DNA of 32,395 nt from Acidobacteriota bacterium (GTDB lineage Bacteria; Acidobacteriota; Vicinamibacteria; Vicinamibacterales; Fen-181): positions 1 to 32,395 of the forward strand of contig JANYLG010000192.1 in NCBI GenBank assembly GCA_025363775.1. Direction: 5' to 3'. Below the pieces are notes generated by a model. The model was not told the DNA's origin, ran no database searches, and was given only the letters and a program-made list of their open reading frames with translations. The position numbers and the translations under genes are program-made. Below, piece by piece: positions 3,133-11,401 of this stretch. Every line of letters starts with the position of its first letter. The stretch's first letter is position 1.

Positions 3133-3723
3133 ATGCGTGTCAGTGTCAGATTCTTGGGGCTGGCCTTGGGCCTCGCTCTCTCGGTTGCCGGATGCGGGGC
3201 GCCGCCCGCGGCAGACATGAACGCGGCCAAGACCGCCGTCGAGAAGTCTGTGGCGGCAGGCGCTGGTGATTACGCCGCCGATTCGCTGAAGGCTGCCCAG
3301 GATGCCCAGGCATCGCTCGATGCCGAGGTGAAGGCCCAGGACGGCAAGTGGTTCAAGTCGTACGACAAGGCGAAGGAACTCTCGGCCGTCGTGAAGACGG
3401 CAGCCGACAAGGCTGCGGCCGATGCCGTCACCGGTAAGGAACAGGCCAAGACCGAGGCGACCGCCGCCATCGGCGAGGCCAAGACCCTGCTGGACGAGGC
3501 CAAGGCTCTCCTGAACAAGGCGCCGAAAGGGAAAGGCTCGGCTGCCGACATCGAGGCCATGAAGGCCGACCTGACGGCCGCGACCACCGCGATCACGGAA
3601 GCCGAAGGCGCACTGAGCAGCGAGCGCTTCCTCGACGCCAAGGCCAAGGCGTCAGCCGCCAGGAACACCGCCTCGAGCGTCAAGACCGCCGTTGAGACGG
3701 CCATGGCAGCCAAGAAGCGGTAG
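3133..3723 (+). CDS. Ala/Lys-rich alpha-helical lipoprotein (DUF4398-like appearance)
   Basis: Signal peptide with lipobox LSVAGC|GAPP, then a low-complexity Ala/Lys/Asp helical body and C-terminus ...AMAAKKR. Confidence 0.8.
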   Translation: MRVSVRFLGLALGLALSVAGCGAPPAADMNAAKTAVEKSVAAGAGDYAADSLKAAQDAQASLDAEVKAQDGKWFKSYDKAKELSAVVKTAADKAAADAVTGKEQAKTEATAAIGEAKTLLDEAKALLNKAPKGKGSAADIEAMKADLTAATTAITEAEGALSSERFLDAKAKASAARNTASSVKTAVETAMAAKKR

Positions 3724-3736
3724 CGCGATTCCCGGG

Positions 3737-3783
3737 CGAACCCCCTGCGGGACGGCGCCATCCGGCGCCTCCTACAGGGTTCG
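3737..3783. terminator. Nested hairpin between lipoprotein and L,D-transpeptidase genes
   Basis: Outer arms CGAACCCCCTG (3737-3747) and CAGGGTTCG (3775-3783), inner perfect stem GGCGCC-ATCC-GGCGCC (3754-3769). No T-tract. Confidence 0.45.
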
Positions 3784-3819
3784 CGTGTCGCGGCACCCTG
3801 GCCCTCAGGATTCTCTCCA

Positions 3820-5010
3820 TTGGAGAACAGCACACCGCAAGGCGCGAACGGTTGGGCGCGGAGCAGATGGTACGCCCTCGCCGCCGGCATCGCGCTGCTG
3901 GCGATCGCGTACGGCATCGTGAGCGTCATCGGATCGCGTCGCGAGACCGCGATCCGAACTGCGTCCGACGCCGCCCGCGTGGCCGTTCGGGAGGCACGTA
4001 CCGCAGAGGCCAAGACGTGGGCCCCGGATGAATTGAGGGCCGCCGAACGCGCCTCGAGCGACGCGCTGACCGCCCAGCGCATCGAGGAGACGGGATTCTG
4101 GCCCGTCCCCGACGCCGCGCGCGTCGTCCGAGCGTATGCTGGAGCCGAACGTGCGGCGCGAGAGGCGCTCACACTCGCGCGCACGCGCCGCGCGGCGGCG
4201 GAAGGTGGGGCGACCTCCCAGATCGAGGAAGCCGGCGCGGCCGTCTCGTCCAGCGAGACGCTGGCCTTGACGATCCACGTTGGCGCCGAGCGCCGCCGCA
4301 TGTTGGCCCAGGCGCGATCGGTCCTGGAGGAAGCGCGCGCCTACCAGCGCGAGGGCGATTTCAAGAGCGCGGCCATGCGTGCGCGCCAGGCCACGGAACT
4401 GGCCGTGGGCCTGCGCGACGACGCGGCTGCGGTGGCCGCCCGCTACGCCGATTCCGACACGGTCGCACGGTGGCAGCGCTGGAAGGAAGAAACCATCGCC
4501 TGGTCCCGGCGCGAGGGCCGGGTGGCAATCGTCGTGTTCAAGGAAGCGCACCTGCTGACGCTCTTCGTGCGCGGCGAGCCAGTGAAGACGTACCAGGTCG
4601 ACCTGAGCGTCAATTGGATCGCCGACAAGTCGCAGGAAGGCGACCGCGCAACCCCCGAGGGCCGATACCGGGTGGCCAGTCGGACGGCGAATCTGTCGTC
4701 GGTCTATTACAAGGCCCTGCTCCTCGACTACCCCAATGCGGAAGACCGCGCCAGGTTCAGCCGCGCGCGCCGCAGCGGTGAGGTACCGCCTTCGGCCAGA
4801 ATCGGCGGCCTCATCGAGATCCATGGCGGGGGCGGCCGTCGCCAGGATTGGACGACCGGCTGCGTCGCCCTGGCGAATACCGACATGGACGAGGTGTTTG
4901 GTCGCGTGGGCGTCGGCACGCCCGTCACCATTGTGGGAAACGACAACTATGGAGCCATCGCCGAGTTTGCCGTCAAGCAACGGCAGGCCAGAGCCGGCCG
5001 CCGGCCCTGA
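3820..5010 (+). CDS. Membrane-anchored L,D-transpeptidase (YkuD domain) with Ala-rich coiled N-terminal region
   Basis: TTG start; TM segment WYALAAGIALLAIAYGIVSVI; YkuD motif IEIHGGGGRRQDWTTGCVALANTDMDEVFGRVGVGTPVTIV (His...T-x-G-C). Confidence 0.88.
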   Translation: MENSTPQGANGWARSRWYALAAGIALLAIAYGIVSVIGSRRETAIRTASDAARVAVREARTAEAKTWAPDELRAAERASSDALTAQRIEETGFWPVPDAARVVRAYAGAERAAREALTLARTRRAAAEGGATSQIEEAGAAVSSSETLALTIHVGAERRRMLAQARSVLEEARAYQREGDFKSAAMRARQATELAVGLRDDAAAVAARYADSDTVARWQRWKEETIAWSRREGRVAIVVFKEAHLLTLFVRGEPVKTYQVDLSVNWIADKSQEGDRATPEGRYRVASRTANLSSVYYKALLLDYPNAEDRARFSRARRSGEVPPSARIGGLIEIHGGGGRRQDWTTGCVALANTDMDEVFGRVGVGTPVTIVGNDNYGAIAEFAVKQRQARAGRRP

Positions 5011-5740
5011 GCCCGACTCGCTATCGACATCTGCGCCGATCAACCCGTCTGCCATAGGTCCGCGCGGATTTGGCCTGCTTCCGCTCGACCGGCGTACCTG
5101 GAGTCTCGTGACACTGGTCACCCTGCTGCTCGCCATCGCGTGGGCGGGCACGGGTTATCGCTACGAGCCGTACGTGGAAGCGCCCCCAGCATTGTCGGGC
5201 GACGTCCCGGCCAACGATCGCAGCCTGAAGCCGTTGGCATCGCGCCTGGCCAGGCGCACACGCGATCTCAACGCTCGCTTGAAAGCGACCGCCCCGCGCG
5301 GGGTGTACATTGTCATCGATCAGACTCAGAACCGGCTGTACCTGAAACGCAACGATGAGACGCTGCTCCAGGCCGTGTGCTCGGCAGGCTCTGGCATGGT
5401 GCTCAAGGAGAGCGGCGGCAAGAAGCGCGAGTGGGTGTTCGACTCGCCGCGCGGACGATTCGAAGTGTTGTCGATGCTGCGCAATCCCGTGTGGAGGAAA
5501 CCCGATTGGGCCTTCGTGGAAGAGTCGCAGCCAATTCCGAAAAACCCGACCGAACGCCTTGACTACGGCTCGTTGGGCGAGTATGCGCTGTATTTCGGCA
5601 ACGGGTACATGATCCACGGAACCCTGTACGAACGGCTGCTCGGACGAGCCGTCTCGCACGGGTGCATCCGCGTGGGGCACGACGATTTGCGCGAGGTCTG
5701 GGCGCATGCGAATGTCGGCACGCCGATCTTCATCTACTGA
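4967..5740 (+). CDS. L,D-transpeptidase (YkuD domain), membrane-anchored
   Basis: TM WSLVTLVTLLLAIAWAG; YIVIDQTQNRLYLKRNDETL...MIHGTLYERLLGRAVSHGCIRVGHDDLREVWAHANVGTPIFIY. Start uncertain (TTG at 4967 overlaps the previous gene). Confidence 0.88.
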   Translation: MPSSNGRPEPAAGPEPDSLSTSAPINPSAIGPRGFGLLPLDRRTWSLVTLVTLLLAIAWAGTGYRYEPYVEAPPALSGDVPANDRSLKPLASRLARRTRDLNARLKATAPRGVYIVIDQTQNRLYLKRNDETLLQAVCSAGSGMVLKESGGKKREWVFDSPRGRFEVLSMLRNPVWRKPDWAFVEESQPIPKNPTERLDYGSLGEYALYFGNGYMIHGTLYERLLGRAVSHGCIRVGHDDLREVWAHANVGTPIFIY

Positions 5741-5807
5741 CATGCCACGATATCTGTTCCCCCGACGTCGAGGACTTCTCACATCAGGGACGAAGGTGTG
5801 GCAGGTC

Positions 5808-6554
5808 ATGACGAGACGCCGAGCACGGTGCGGCTGGGGGCTGGCGATGGTCGCAGTCGGCGTCCTGGCCGCCGCGTGCACGAGAGCCCCGACAACACAA
5901 AAGTCCACCGATCTTCGGGCGGAAGTGGCCCGGCTCCAGCGGACCAGCGCGCTCCTTCAGCGCCAGATCGATCTGGCCGACGAGAAGGAGTTTTACCTGG
6001 TGATCGATCCGGCCGGGTCCGAGGTGTCGCTGATGCTTCGTGGCGCCCAACTGCAGCGCTATCCCGTTCTTGGTCTGCAGATCGGACACCCCCGGGTCTC
6101 ATGGGTGGGCCGGCACGATCCGCGGCCGTGGCAGGGCACAACCTGGTTGAATGGCAAGCTGGATCCGCCCCGCCAGATCGACCGGCTTGTCATTCAGGCC
6201 GCCCCGCCGGGCAAGGACGTGGCCGAGCCCGAGCCGGCGGTAATCCCGCCCACAGCCGAGGAGCTCTACCCCGTGCCGACGCGGTACCATATTCGCTTCG
6301 CCGGTGGCCTCTCGCTGGAGATCCGCCCGCGTGAAGCGGACGCGAATGCGGGGCGCTGGGCACGTCTGTGGGCTTCCTGGAGCGCCAAGTGGCGTGATGT
6401 CGCTTCCGCGGTTCTTGCCAGGGATCGCGACGCCGTCAGGCTGCGCATGGCCATGAACCCGAAGGACGCCGAATCGCTCTACCGCTCCCTGCCGCCCGCC
6501 GTCCGGCTCATCGTCCTTGCCGGCCGCCCAGACGCGCCCGCGGATTCCAAGTGA
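5808..6554 (+). CDS. Lipoprotein, apparent catalytically inactive YkuD-like paralog
   Basis: Lipobox LAAAC|TRAP. EFYLVIDPAGSEVSLMLRGAQLQRYPVLGLQIG aligns by eye with VYIVIDQTQNRLYLKRNDETLLQAVCSAGSG of the upstream L,D-transpeptidase. The C-terminal VRLRMAMNPKDAESLYRSLPPAVRLIVL resembles the post-SHGC region, but His and Cys are absent. Confidence 0.65.
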   Translation: MTRRRARCGWGLAMVAVGVLAAACTRAPTTQKSTDLRAEVARLQRTSALLQRQIDLADEKEFYLVIDPAGSEVSLMLRGAQLQRYPVLGLQIGHPRVSWVGRHDPRPWQGTTWLNGKLDPPRQIDRLVIQAAPPGKDVAEPEPAVIPPTAEELYPVPTRYHIRFAGGLSLEIRPREADANAGRWARLWASWSAKWRDVASAVLARDRDAVRLRMAMNPKDAESLYRSLPPAVRLIVLAGRPDAPADSK

Positions 6555-7253: not shown

Positions 7254-9059
7254 TTACGGCGTCTCGCTCTTCTTCTCCACCTTCTTCTCGCTCTTCCTCT
7301 CGACCTTCGGCGGGGCTGAGGGAGCCGTCGGAAGCTTCGTGCCAATCGGGCCCTGTTGCTGGAGCCACTCGGCCGGGATGGTCCGCTTCTCCGGGGTCGT
7401 GCGCGATCCGCCGTCCTGGTAGTCGGTGACGAGTTTGTCGGCCAGCTCCCACCACTTCATGAAGTTCTCTTGCGCGACACGGTTCGAGTAGTCGCTCATG
7501 AACGTGCGTGCGCGAGCGGGATCCGTCTGATGGATCTCGAGGGCCATCTTCTCGACGACCGGTTGATCGGCGAACAGCTTGTTCTCGATCTCGGCTTGTT
7601 TCGCGCGAATGTCCTGGATCATGCCGCGCCAGTTCAGGTTCGACCAGTTGCCGATGAAGTTCGACGCCCAGTAGGCGGAGTTGCGATCGAAGCGGTCGCG
7701 GCGACCGATCTCGAACGAGGTCGGCACCTTGAAGTTACCCGCGTAGAACGGCGTGAACACGGAGGTCTTCGCGTCATCCGGCGCGAACCACGCGAGGCTG
7801 CCGATCCACGCCGGCATGCCGGCGCGCGCCTGGAGCACCGTCACGTACGAGCACTGCTGCACGGCCACGACGCGCTCCACCGGCGAGTAGCCCTCGACCG
7901 GCTTGTAGTCCCGCGGCATCGACCAGCGGTTCGGCGTGCCAAACGGGCCGGCCAGCGGGTTCTTGGTCTGGTCGAACTCCGTCCCCTCGTAGACGTCGCG
8001 GTGAATCGCCATCAGGTCGCGGACGGTGACCTTCTTGTCGGGCTTCACCGAGAACGGCTGTTCCGGCGCCCACGGGTCGAGTTTCAGCGACGGCGCCAGG
8101 ATGCTGAGCACGCGCCATTCACGGCGGTTGGGTGTGGGCGGGCCCGACATCCCGAAGGTCCGGTTGAAGAGGAACGGTTCGCCCTTCTTCCACCAGCCCA
8201 TCTTCTCGGCCACGTCGTACACGTTCTTCGAGTACATCGTCTGATTCGGGTCGTCGGTCAGGGTGGTAATCCTCGACCGGTTGGCGGACACGCCCACTTC
8301 GCCGGGAGGAATCCGCTTGGCCGCCCAGACGGCCCCGATCTCGGCAGAACCCGGTCCGAAGATCTCGAACTGCCAGATCTCCTTGGCGTCACCGATCGTC
8401 AGGCACTCGCCGCCATCGCCGTAGCCGTGCTTCTCGGCGAACTCGCCCATGATCCGGATGGCTTCACGGGCGGTGGACGCGCGCTCGAGGGCCAGACGTT
8501 CGAGCTCCATGATGTCGAACATCCCTTCGTCGCTGTAGAGCTCGCGGCGGCCGCCGATCGTCGTCTCGCCAATGATGACGCCCTTCTCGTTCATGAAGGG
8601 GTAGGACGCGTCATAGCGGGTGAAGGTCTGCGCCACCTCCGCGATCTCGCCGGCCCTGTGTTCCTGCCCGTTGGGCGGCTTCTCTTCACCCAGGCCGCCG
8701 CCCTTCATGACGACGCGCTTGGCGTCGGCAGGGTGCTTTCCGCCCGGCACCACCTTGATCCGAATTTCGTATCCGCCGTCGCACGAGTGGCTGGTCAGCG
8801 TGCCGTCTGCGGACGTCTCCGGGCTGGTCGGAACCGACGTGCACGCCTCGCACGCGTTTTCCCACACCTCGTTCGGTACGCCCTCCGGCCTGGGCCACCC
8901 GCAGATCTTCTTGCCGTACAACTCCGGCTGAATGCTCTGCGCACCGTTCTGCGGCTTTCCGCTCTGTGGCTTCCCGTCCTGGGGGCCGGCCACGCCCACG
9001 AGGCCGGCCAGCATCACAATCAGTCCTGTACAAAGTATTCTCGTCATCCTCACGGACAT
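7254..9059 (-). CDS. C69-family dipeptidase (secreted)
   Basis: Signal peptide; ACTSVPTSPETSADGTLTSHSCDGGYEIR (C69 N-terminal Cys region); MNEKGVIIGETTIGGRRELYSDEGMFDIMELERLALERASTAREAI...GGECLTIGDAKEIWQFEIFGPG. Confidence 0.88.
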   Translation of the reverse strand: MSVRMTRILCTGLIVMLAGLVGVAGPQDGKPQSGKPQNGAQSIQPELYGKKICGWPRPEGVPNEVWENACEACTSVPTSPETSADGTLTSHSCDGGYEIRIKVVPGGKHPADAKRVVMKGGGLGEEKPPNGQEHRAGEIAEVAQTFTRYDASYPFMNEKGVIIGETTIGGRRELYSDEGMFDIMELERLALERASTAREAIRIMGEFAEKHGYGDGGECLTIGDAKEIWQFEIFGPGSAEIGAVWAAKRIPPGEVGVSANRSRITTLTDDPNQTMYSKNVYDVAEKMGWWKKGEPFLFNRTFGMSGPPTPNRREWRVLSILAPSLKLDPWAPEQPFSVKPDKKVTVRDLMAIHRDVYEGTEFDQTKNPLAGPFGTPNRWSMPRDYKPVEGYSPVERVVAVQQCSYVTVLQARAGMPAWIGSLAWFAPDDAKTSVFTPFYAGNFKVPTSFEIGRRDRFDRNSAYWASNFIGNWSNLNWRGMIQDIRAKQAEIENKLFADQPVVEKMALEIHQTDPARARTFMSDYSNRVAQENFMKWWELADKLVTDYQDGGSRTTPEKRTIPAEWLQQQGPIGTKLPTAPSAPPKVERKSEKKVEKKSETP

Positions 9060-9274: not shown

Positions 9275-11401
9275 ATGGCACGAACCGTCGTTCGCGTGGC
9301 TGCCGTCGTCGCGGCGCTGTGGTCGGTCACGCCGGCGTCGAATCCGGCCGGGCAAACTCGGCCTGCGCGGCGCCCGAACATTCTGCTCGTCACGATCGAT
9401 ACCCTGCGGCCGGACCGGGTCGGCGTGTACGGCGCCCGGTCGCCGGCGACGCCGGTGATGGATCGGCTGGCGGCTGGCGGCTGCCTGTTCGAGGACGCAG
9501 TGGTCCAGGTGCCCTTGACGCGGGCGTCTCACGCGACCATCCTCACCGGACTCTACCCGTTCCAGCACGGCATCCGCGACAACTTCGCTCCACCGCTCGC
9601 GGCCGCTCACCGGACGCTGGCCGAAATTCTCAAGGGACAGGGGTACGTCACCGGCGGATTCGTCGGATCGTTCATCGTGAATACGCAGTCGGGGTTGAAT
9701 CGCGGGTTCGACGAGTTCGACGACGTATTCGAAACGGGCGGCAAGGGCTCCGCCTTCTTCACCGAGTACCAGCGGCGTGCCGGGCAAGTGGAAGAGCGTG
9801 CAGGCCCGTGGATCGAGCGGGTAGCCGCCGGGAGCCGGCCGTTCTTTGCCTGGGTCCACTTCTACGACCCGCATTCACCGTACACGCCCCCGCCGCCCTA
9901 CAACACGCGCTATGCCAAGACCCCGTACGACGGCGAAGTCGCGTACACCGACGAAATTCTCGGGCGGCTCTTGGCGCGCCTGACCAAGCTCGGGGTCGCC
10001 GACCGTACGCTGGTGGTCTTCACCTCCGATCACGGCGAGGCGCTCGGCGAGCACAAGGAGGAAGAACACGGCTTCTTCGTCTACGACGTCGTGTTGCGCG
10101 TGCCGCTCATCCTGCGGATGCCCGGCCGGGTTGCCGCAGGCGTACGGGCGAAGACGGAGGCGCGGAGCATCGACCTGCTTCCGACGATCCTCGACCTGGC
10201 CGGCGTCCGCGCGGCCACTCCGCCGGGGCTGCCCGGTCGTTCGCTCGCGGCGGCGATCGACGCGCCCCAGAAGAAAGACCCGCAGGTCGTCTCCTACTCC
10301 GAGACGCTCTTTCCGCGCCTGCACTTCGGCTGGAGCGAGTTGCGATCGGTCCGCATGGGGGGCTGGAAGTACATCCAGGCGCCGCGGCCCGAACTCTACG
10401 ATCTCGCGCACGATCCCGGCGAGCGAAGCAATCTCTTCGCGGCCGAAGGGCAGCGCGCGGCAGCCCTGCGGTCGCGCCTGCTCGACACACTCGGCGGCAG
10501 TCCCGAGTCGGCCGTCGTCGGCGTGGCCAGCCCGAAGCTGGATCAGGCGACGATGGACCGCCTGGCCAGCCTCGGGTACGTCAGCGGGCCGGGCGGCGGC
10601 GCGCCGAGCAACGCGGACCCGAAGGACAAGATCGACGAGTTCCTGGCTTACGGCGGGGCAATCCGGAGCGCCCTCGCAGCGTTCGAGCGAGGCGACCTCC
10701 AGGCGGCGGTCAAGGGGCTCGAGGCCATCGTCTCGGCAGGGCGCGGCGGGTTCGACGTGAGCTTCTACCTCGGCCGCGCCTACCTCACGCTCGGGAATTT
10801 CCAGGCCGCGGTCCCGCACCTGCGCGAAGCGATCCTCAAGGTCCCGACCTACACGCCTGCCTATCTCGAGCTGGCAAAGGCGTTCGTGGCACTCCGGCAA
10901 TTCGACGAGGCCATGCGCATCCTGCGAGACGGCCTCGCGCGCGACCCCGGCAACTTCGAATTCCACTCGCACCTCGGCTTCATTGCCCGCGCCAGGCGGG
11001 ACCTGCCGACCGCGCGCCGGCACTACGAGACCGCCCGGTCGCTCGAGCCCGGGGACTTCGACGTGCGCATGAACCTCGGCGCGATCTACCGGGACCTGGG
11101 CGAGCCGAAACTGGCGCTCCAGGAGGTGGATGCCGCGCTGAAGATCCAGCCGTCCGCAGGCGAGGCGCACAACCAGCGGGGCATGCTGCTCGGAGGCTTG
11201 GGCGATTTTACCAGGGCGGCCGGCGCCTTCGAACGAGCCACGACCCTGGATCCGAAGAACGCGTCGACCTGGTTCAACCTGGGTCTGGCACGGCTGCGCA
11301 CGGGGAACAACGCGGGCGCCGCCGCCGCGTTGAGGAAGGCCATCGAGCTGAAGCCAGACTTCGACGAAGCCAAGGCACTGCTCGCCAAAGCCGGGCGCTG
11401 A
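9275..11401 (+). CDS. Sulfatase-like (alkaline phosphatase superfamily) protein with C-terminal TPR repeats
   Basis: RPNILLVTIDTLRPDRVGVYG...VPLTRASHATILTGLYPFQHGIRDN...FTSDHGEALGEHKEEEHGFFVYD; C-terminal TPR units (FYLGRAYLTLGNFQAAVPHLREAI...). Confidence 0.92.
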   Translation: MARTVVRVAAVVAALWSVTPASNPAGQTRPARRPNILLVTIDTLRPDRVGVYGARSPATPVMDRLAAGGCLFEDAVVQVPLTRASHATILTGLYPFQHGIRDNFAPPLAAAHRTLAEILKGQGYVTGGFVGSFIVNTQSGLNRGFDEFDDVFETGGKGSAFFTEYQRRAGQVEERAGPWIERVAAGSRPFFAWVHFYDPHSPYTPPPPYNTRYAKTPYDGEVAYTDEILGRLLARLTKLGVADRTLVVFTSDHGEALGEHKEEEHGFFVYDVVLRVPLILRMPGRVAAGVRAKTEARSIDLLPTILDLAGVRAATPPGLPGRSLAAAIDAPQKKDPQVVSYSETLFPRLHFGWSELRSVRMGGWKYIQAPRPELYDLAHDPGERSNLFAAEGQRAAALRSRLLDTLGGSPESAVVGVASPKLDQATMDRLASLGYVSGPGGGAPSNADPKDKIDEFLAYGGAIRSALAAFERGDLQAAVKGLEAIVSAGRGGFDVSFYLGRAYLTLGNFQAAVPHLREAILKVPTYTPAYLELAKAFVALRQFDEAMRILRDGLARDPGNFEFHSHLGFIARARRDLPTARRHYETARSLEPGDFDVRMNLGAIYRDLGEPKLALQEVDAALKIQPSAGEAHNQRGMLLGGLGDFTRAAGAFERATTLDPKNASTWFNLGLARLRTGNNAGAAAALRKAIELKPDFDEAKALLAKAGR

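Follow-up and report, generated by a model that had tools for sequence, protein, structure and literature searches.

A conserved four-gene lipoprotein and YkuD cassette as a candidate reversible tether between outer membrane and peptidoglycan

What function unites a helical lipoprotein, two YkuD-domain enzymes and a degenerate YkuD-like protein encoded side by side is the question raised by positions 3133–6554 of a 32,395-nucleotide stretch of DNA (henceforth the window), which comprises positions 1 to 32,395 of contig JANYLG010000192.1 from an Acidobacteriota bacterium (GCA_025363775.1, a 3.8-Mb draft assembly). An earlier note on the window described four consecutive same-strand genes, including those for a 196-amino-acid lipoprotein ending in AAKKR and two membrane-anchored YkuD proteins, and all of these open reading frames (ORFs) were confirmed on the + strand, downstream of an enolase gene. 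Gene 1 (3133..3723, +) encodes the lipoprotein, with a VAGC lipobox at Cys21, a predicted three-helix rod, an AP-x-GK turn containing Lys134 (K134) and the basic tail, and is the candidate tether and substrate. Gene 2 (YkuD-1; 3820..5010, +) combines an N-terminal transmembrane (TM) segment, a rod homologous to gene 1 and a C-terminal YkuD domain with the motif TTGCVAL, which is of DpaA type with no Arg after the Cys, and is the candidate detaching hydrolase. Gene 3 (YkuD-2; 4949..5740, +) encodes a TM-anchored YkuD protein with the transpeptidase signature MIHGT...SHGCIRV, the candidate attaching enzyme; its start is uncertain, as the in-frame ATG at 4949 overlaps gene 2 and the conserved part begins at about 5129. 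Gene 4 (5808..6554, +) encodes a second lipoprotein (lipobox LAAAC) whose degenerate YkuD-like domain is devoid of the catalytic His and Cys, a candidate non-catalytic partner; the ATG at 5808 (MTRRRARCGWGLAMVAVGVLAAAC) is a likelier lipoprotein start than that at 5706, and the ORF ends at 6554.

The answer proposed here, to which we give an even chance, is that the four genes constitute a self-contained, reversible tether between the outer membrane and peptidoglycan, analogous but not homologous to the Lpp/LdtABC/DpaA system. In such a system, gene 1 would be an abundant outer-membrane lipoprotein whose three-helix rod brings the basic, Lys-rich tail to the wall, and gene 3, anchored in the inner membrane, would use L,D-transpeptidation to link a Lys amine of gene 1 to a stem peptide of the peptidoglycan. 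Gene 2, in most cases likewise held in the inner membrane, would release the lipoprotein by hydrolysing that bond; the rod of gene 2 would either set the height of the enzyme or dock on gene 1 rods, and gene 4 would aid or regulate gene 3 as a non-catalytic YkuD relative. The gene set, its conservation, the active-site signatures, the homology of the two rods and the hairpin behind gene 1 in many relatives are seen in the sequences; the outer-membrane location, the covalent attachment, its hydrolysis and what gene 4 does are inferred.

The four genes are a genuine conserved unit, for which synteny rules out chance. In a gene-by-gene search of 60 relatives, all four genes occurred in order in 8 genomes and, split by contig ends, in 2 more; genes 2, 3 (as orthologue) and 4 were not found in the remaining genomes. 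A scan of GTDB genomes seeded with the gene 3 alignment then yielded 80 named loci from about 12 phylum-level groups, with the qualification that the labels are the submitters', that the records are for the most part metagenome bins and that the peptide patterns catch only fairly close relatives of gene 3. These loci come from Acidobacteriota (including Aminicenantes), Gemmatimonadota, Nitrospirota, Bacteroidota, Fibrobacterota, Myxococcota, Thermodesulfobacteriota and Pseudomonadota, and from the candidate groups Eisenbacteria, Krumholzibacteria, Latescibacteria and Lindowbacteria. Every sufficiently long locus save one outlier, L121, carries the order lipoprotein, YkuD-1, YkuD-2 and YkuD-like protein on a single strand: gene 1 lies upstream of gene 3 in 67 of 68 loci of sufficient length, gene 2 lies upstream in 73 of 74, and gene 4 lies downstream in 79 of 80, all on the same strand as gene 3. 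Apart from L121, the remaining absent copies (12 of gene 1 and 6 of gene 2) all fall at contig ends. The hidden Markov model (HMM) used for the gene 4 count was built from the first 52 loci found, and the remaining 28, scored before any was added, gave i-Evalues between 1e-5 and 1e-55.

A second sample, drawn with the gene 2 profile alone from 149 Acidobacteriota genomes, gave 30 full-length copies, other genomes having the YkuD part only. Around 24 full-length, rod-bearing copies whose flanks were examined, gene 1 and gene 3 were present in all 24 and gene 4 in 23, a contig end truncating the remaining locus, and as a negative control the flanks of rod-less YkuD-1 homologues contained partner genes in 0 of 7 cases; about half of these 24 loci are records already in the gene 3 scan, so that the two samples overlap. 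The linkage of lipoprotein gene and transpeptidases outside this genome, on which the earlier note had made its proposal depend, thus holds in a neighbourhood comparison at every testable locus but one. Moreover, the gene 2 tree closely tracks the phylum labels, needing 15 changes where the minimum is 12 and shuffles give 35, and the cassette therefore looks old and inherited mainly within phyla. A fifth obligate partner was also sought beside the four genes, and no other gene family recurs across phyla. In 15 loci, apparently all from Bacteroidota, a divergent gene that by eye resembles an extracytoplasmic function (ECF)-type sigma factor stands upstream of the cassette (e.g., L113:3309-3884, −).

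The division of labour between the two enzymes was read from their active sites. The YkuD domain of gene 3 (PF03734, E 7e-21) is its sole Pfam match, so that no LysM domain is present and the N-terminus is a TM segment; it has the pattern HG...[ST]HGC-x-R, of which the GC-x-R transpeptidase signature recurs in 80 of 80 gene 3 loci and aligns with LdtA, LdtB, LdtC and LdtE. YkuD transpeptidases are reported to keep an Arg at position +2 from the catalytic Cys; this Arg is missing in DpaA and in L,D-carboxypeptidases (PMC8263019). In gene 2, whose YkuD domain is equally recognizable (PF03734, E 2e-17), this Arg occurs in 0 of 73 proteins, all 73 having another residue, and a reading of both YkuD proteins as transpeptidases was rejected on this ground; the earlier note had treated the two as equivalent, and on this point it has to be revised to one transpeptidase signature and one DpaA-like hydrolase signature. 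Likewise, the equivalent of the substrate-binding Lys83 of DpaA is kept in 71 of 71 gene 2 proteins and that of Tyr109 in at least 60 of 71 by a simple pattern, and the NCBIfam DpaA model (NF040599) matches 28 of 29 members, more than other models do. The pairing of the two signatures points to an attaching and a detaching enzyme, and these two proteins account for two of the only three YkuD domains in the draft genome.

What the putative detaching enzyme has in common with the lipoprotein is its periplasmic arm, which is homologous to the whole gene 1 rod (hhalign score 144.5, P 2e-22, 167 columns); the YkuD domain of gene 2 occupies the place of the gene 1 tail. Composition was ruled out as the cause of this similarity by column, heptad-block and reversed controls, which reached at most 38 in heptad-block shuffles and 18.7 when reversed, and the homology was also seen in genome searches. 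The anchor of gene 2 is usually a TM segment, replaced by a lipobox in the Nitrospirota-type loci L056, L057 and L066, where the rod-bearing hydrolase is predicted to be a lipoprotein itself. Taken at its broadest, the proposal is that of a widespread, covalent and reversible tether, unrelated to Lpp by descent, which one cassette would provide in Acidobacteriota, Bacteroidota, Nitrospirota, Gemmatimonadota and some eight further groups of phylum level, and whose detaching enzyme would have been built by fusing the rod of the tether to a YkuD hydrolase; for this wider statement our confidence falls a little short of even.

The predicted shape of the lipoprotein would suit such a tether. The structure model of gene 1, with a predicted local distance difference test score (pLDDT) of 85, contains helices at residues 26–69, 78–129 and 137–195, the longest of which (52 residues, ~78 Å) is near the length of Lpp; the three are read here as an antiparallel three-helix bundle, and with that helix order the tail would sit at the opposite end from the lipid anchor. 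Foldseek returned from the PDB only helical bundles for this model, including designed antiparallel three-helix bundles, none of them significant. Length is tightly conserved among the relatives, a lipobox pattern is present in 65 of 67, and Asp at position +2 in none, the +2 rule being that of E. coli, which may not apply in these phyla. Lys and Arg make up 57% of the last five positions versus 13% of the body. Moreover, a hairpin with a T-rich 3' edge lies within 110 bases after gene 1 in 25 of 67 loci, versus 1.1% in shuffles, and the same type of hairpin follows gene 2 in 0 of 73, gene 3 in 0 of 79 and gene 4 in 7 of 76; its position agrees with synthesis of the lipoprotein in larger amounts than its enzymes, as expected of a structural tether. 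Gene 1 also has paralogues in loci L032-L038 (e.g., L032:7864-8520, −), all of the same order, one of them in the window genome, in which the first ~100 amino acids of gene 1 (about 60–66% identical) are joined to a TonB C-terminal domain (PF03544, E 4e-21); these are lipoprotein rods with a terminal TonB domain, and no BLAST match to genes 2–4 was found nearby.

Gene 4 has no Pfam match, PF03734 included, and no HG...GC catalytic motif, and its profile aligns with that of gene 3 at an hhalign score of 37.9 (P 2.4e-5, probability 75%), block shuffles reaching at most 26; nearly all of the best PDB matches of its low-confidence model (pLDDT 60) in Foldseek are YkuD structures, none being significant (E 0.05 or worse). 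A non-catalytic YkuD partner is the likeliest reading of gene 4 from profile and model. The description of the fourth gene in the earlier note as a lipoprotein with a degenerate YkuD-like domain finds support at the profile level for the fold and is narrowed for the anchor, since most lineages have a TM- or signal-anchored gene 4 and only some, that of the window among them, a lipoprotein. In the Nitrospirota loci L056, L062, L065, L066, L067, L072, L079 and L080, the gene 3 and gene 4 ORFs share a few bases, which suggests translational coupling.

Several observations weigh against a reversible tether, and the first concern gene 2, which scores 33.7 bits against an equivalog cut-off of 365 for NF040599 and could instead be an L,D-carboxypeptidase. 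As an enzyme of the Csd6/Pgp2 type it would trim tetrapeptides and control the donor supply of gene 3 instead of releasing gene 1; Csd6 and Pgp2 are indeed among the PDB sequence matches of gene 2, and both also lack the Arg (PMC8263019). This reading is quite improbable, since the top PDB sequence match, 8ikr, has a YkuD domain and does not belong to the carboxypeptidase entries, since 69 of 71 gene 2 proteins have Glu where the Csd6-type D-Ala pocket has its Trp, and since carboxypeptidase action would leave the shared rod unexplained.

The second group of objections concerns the acceptor residue. In Dickeya, a C-terminal Lys is necessary and sufficient for attachment (PMC12274547). The earlier conception, in which an unrelated or diverged system anchors the envelope by means of a substrate, enzymes and a non-catalytic partner of its own, drew very strong support from linkage and passed half of the test of a C-terminal Lys conserved in orthologues: the tail is strongly basic with a Lys within the last five residues in 61 of 67 loci, but Lys is the last residue in only 40 of 67, the other 27 including the window protein (which ends in KKR), and in four proteins, three from Gemmatimonadota and one from Myxococcota, the last eight residues contain no Lys. 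In view of the requirement in Dickeya, Arg-ended gene 1 proteins, that of the window included, would need trimming or another acceptor. The terminator-like hairpin is likewise missing in the majority of loci; in the window, the gap between genes 1 and 2 (3724..3819, +), where many relatives have it, contains an imperfect GC-rich hairpin with no T-run, and neither a terminator scan of the + strand nor a sigma-70 promoter scan of the region gave a match. The tail and the hairpin bear directly on an alternative that is unlikely, though by no means negligible, in which gene 1 is a non-covalent activator or guide of gene 3, itself forming ordinary 3-3 cross-links, with gene 2 editing stem peptides, gene 4 acting as a structural partner and the basic tail binding the acidic wall or the enzyme. 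Gene 1 would then extend from the outer membrane across the wall to switch on its enzyme, much as LpoA and LpoB do for penicillin-binding proteins. Conservation of the tail as basic and not as a terminal Lys, retention of both enzymes in loci with Arg-only tails, and a rod common to gene 1 and an enzyme, as for interaction partners, all suit an activator; the near-terminal Lys of most tails does not, nor does the excess of gene 1 suggested by the hairpin in many loci, which would be unexpected for an activator.

A covalent tether might also be joined elsewhere, through K134 in the AP-x-GK turn. K134 is the sole invariant Lys of gene 1 (66 of 66 aligned relatives), and the turn occurs in 0 of 71 gene 2 rods, so that it is not simply required for the rod fold; because Coxiella LimB is attached through an internal Lys (Lys21), K134 is a real rival acceptor. 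Attachment at this residue is nonetheless very improbable, as the adjacent Ala, Pro and Gly vary no more than the Lys does, in keeping with a structural turn, and the predicted helix order would place the turn at the membrane-proximal end, far from the wall; that the sole invariant Lys lies in this turn also counts against the tail-linked tether preferred here. Finally, the sorting rule that would send gene 1 to the outer membrane is that of E. coli and may differ in these phyla, and the genome encodes two OmpA-domain proteins, so that the cassette would not be the only tether.

Beyond the four genes, a family C69 dipeptidase gene (window 7254-9059, −) lies close downstream of the cassette in convergent orientation, and a sulfatase domain and a long tetratricopeptide repeat array are fused in one ORF at window 9275-11401.

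If the tail-linked, reversible tether is correct, tethering in the manner of Lpp evolved independently on the basis of an unrelated protein and needs no more than a single gene cassette, which would also supply a substrate for DpaA-like enzymes in bacteria without Lpp; the substrate of those of Acidobacteria and Bacteroidetes is not known (PMC8263019). The cassette offers a testable substrate, writer and eraser for many phyla together, and, for some DUF4398-type proteins (PF14346), the first hypothesis of what they do; 14 of 29 members of the gene 1 family match this Pfam domain, which has no known function (best E 4e-10), and the window protein does not. The literature on Lpp, DpaA, LimB and outer-membrane protein (OMP) attachment, searched in titles and abstracts with subscription papers largely outside the search, gave no description of the four-gene set. 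Membership of gene 1 in the Lpp family itself was rejected, as neither the window protein nor any of 29 relatives matches PF04728.

Among known systems, the closest likeness is to Lpp with LdtA, LdtB, LdtC and DpaA, in which a helical lipoprotein with a basic tail is served by GC-x-R YkuD transpeptidases and by DpaA, a YkuD hydrolase that lacks this Arg and undoes the attachment of E. coli Lpp; E. coli lpp also adjoins a YkuD gene, ldtE. Lpp-like proteins are restricted to Gammaproteobacteria (PMC8263019), whereas the cassette spans about 12 phylum-level groups, and Lpp has 58 amino acids in one helix, whereas gene 1 has about 176 mature amino acids in a three-helix rod and often does not end in Lys. 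In further contrast to the Lpp system, the genes here form one operon-like set, the hydrolase bears the rod of the lipoprotein and a fourth, non-catalytic YkuD-like protein is added. Gene 2 resembles DpaA/YafK (NF040599) in its YkuD domain, in the non-Arg residue two after the Cys and in the equivalents of Lys83 and, mostly, Tyr109, and differs in its TM segment (a lipobox in a few Nitrospirota-type loci) and its rod domain of ~170 residues. In Coxiella, Legionella and Brucella (LimB and OMP attachment), YkuD enzymes also link non-Lpp proteins of the outer membrane to the wall; their substrates mostly use an N-terminal Gly or Ala or an internal Lys, unlike the C-terminal tail proposed for gene 1.

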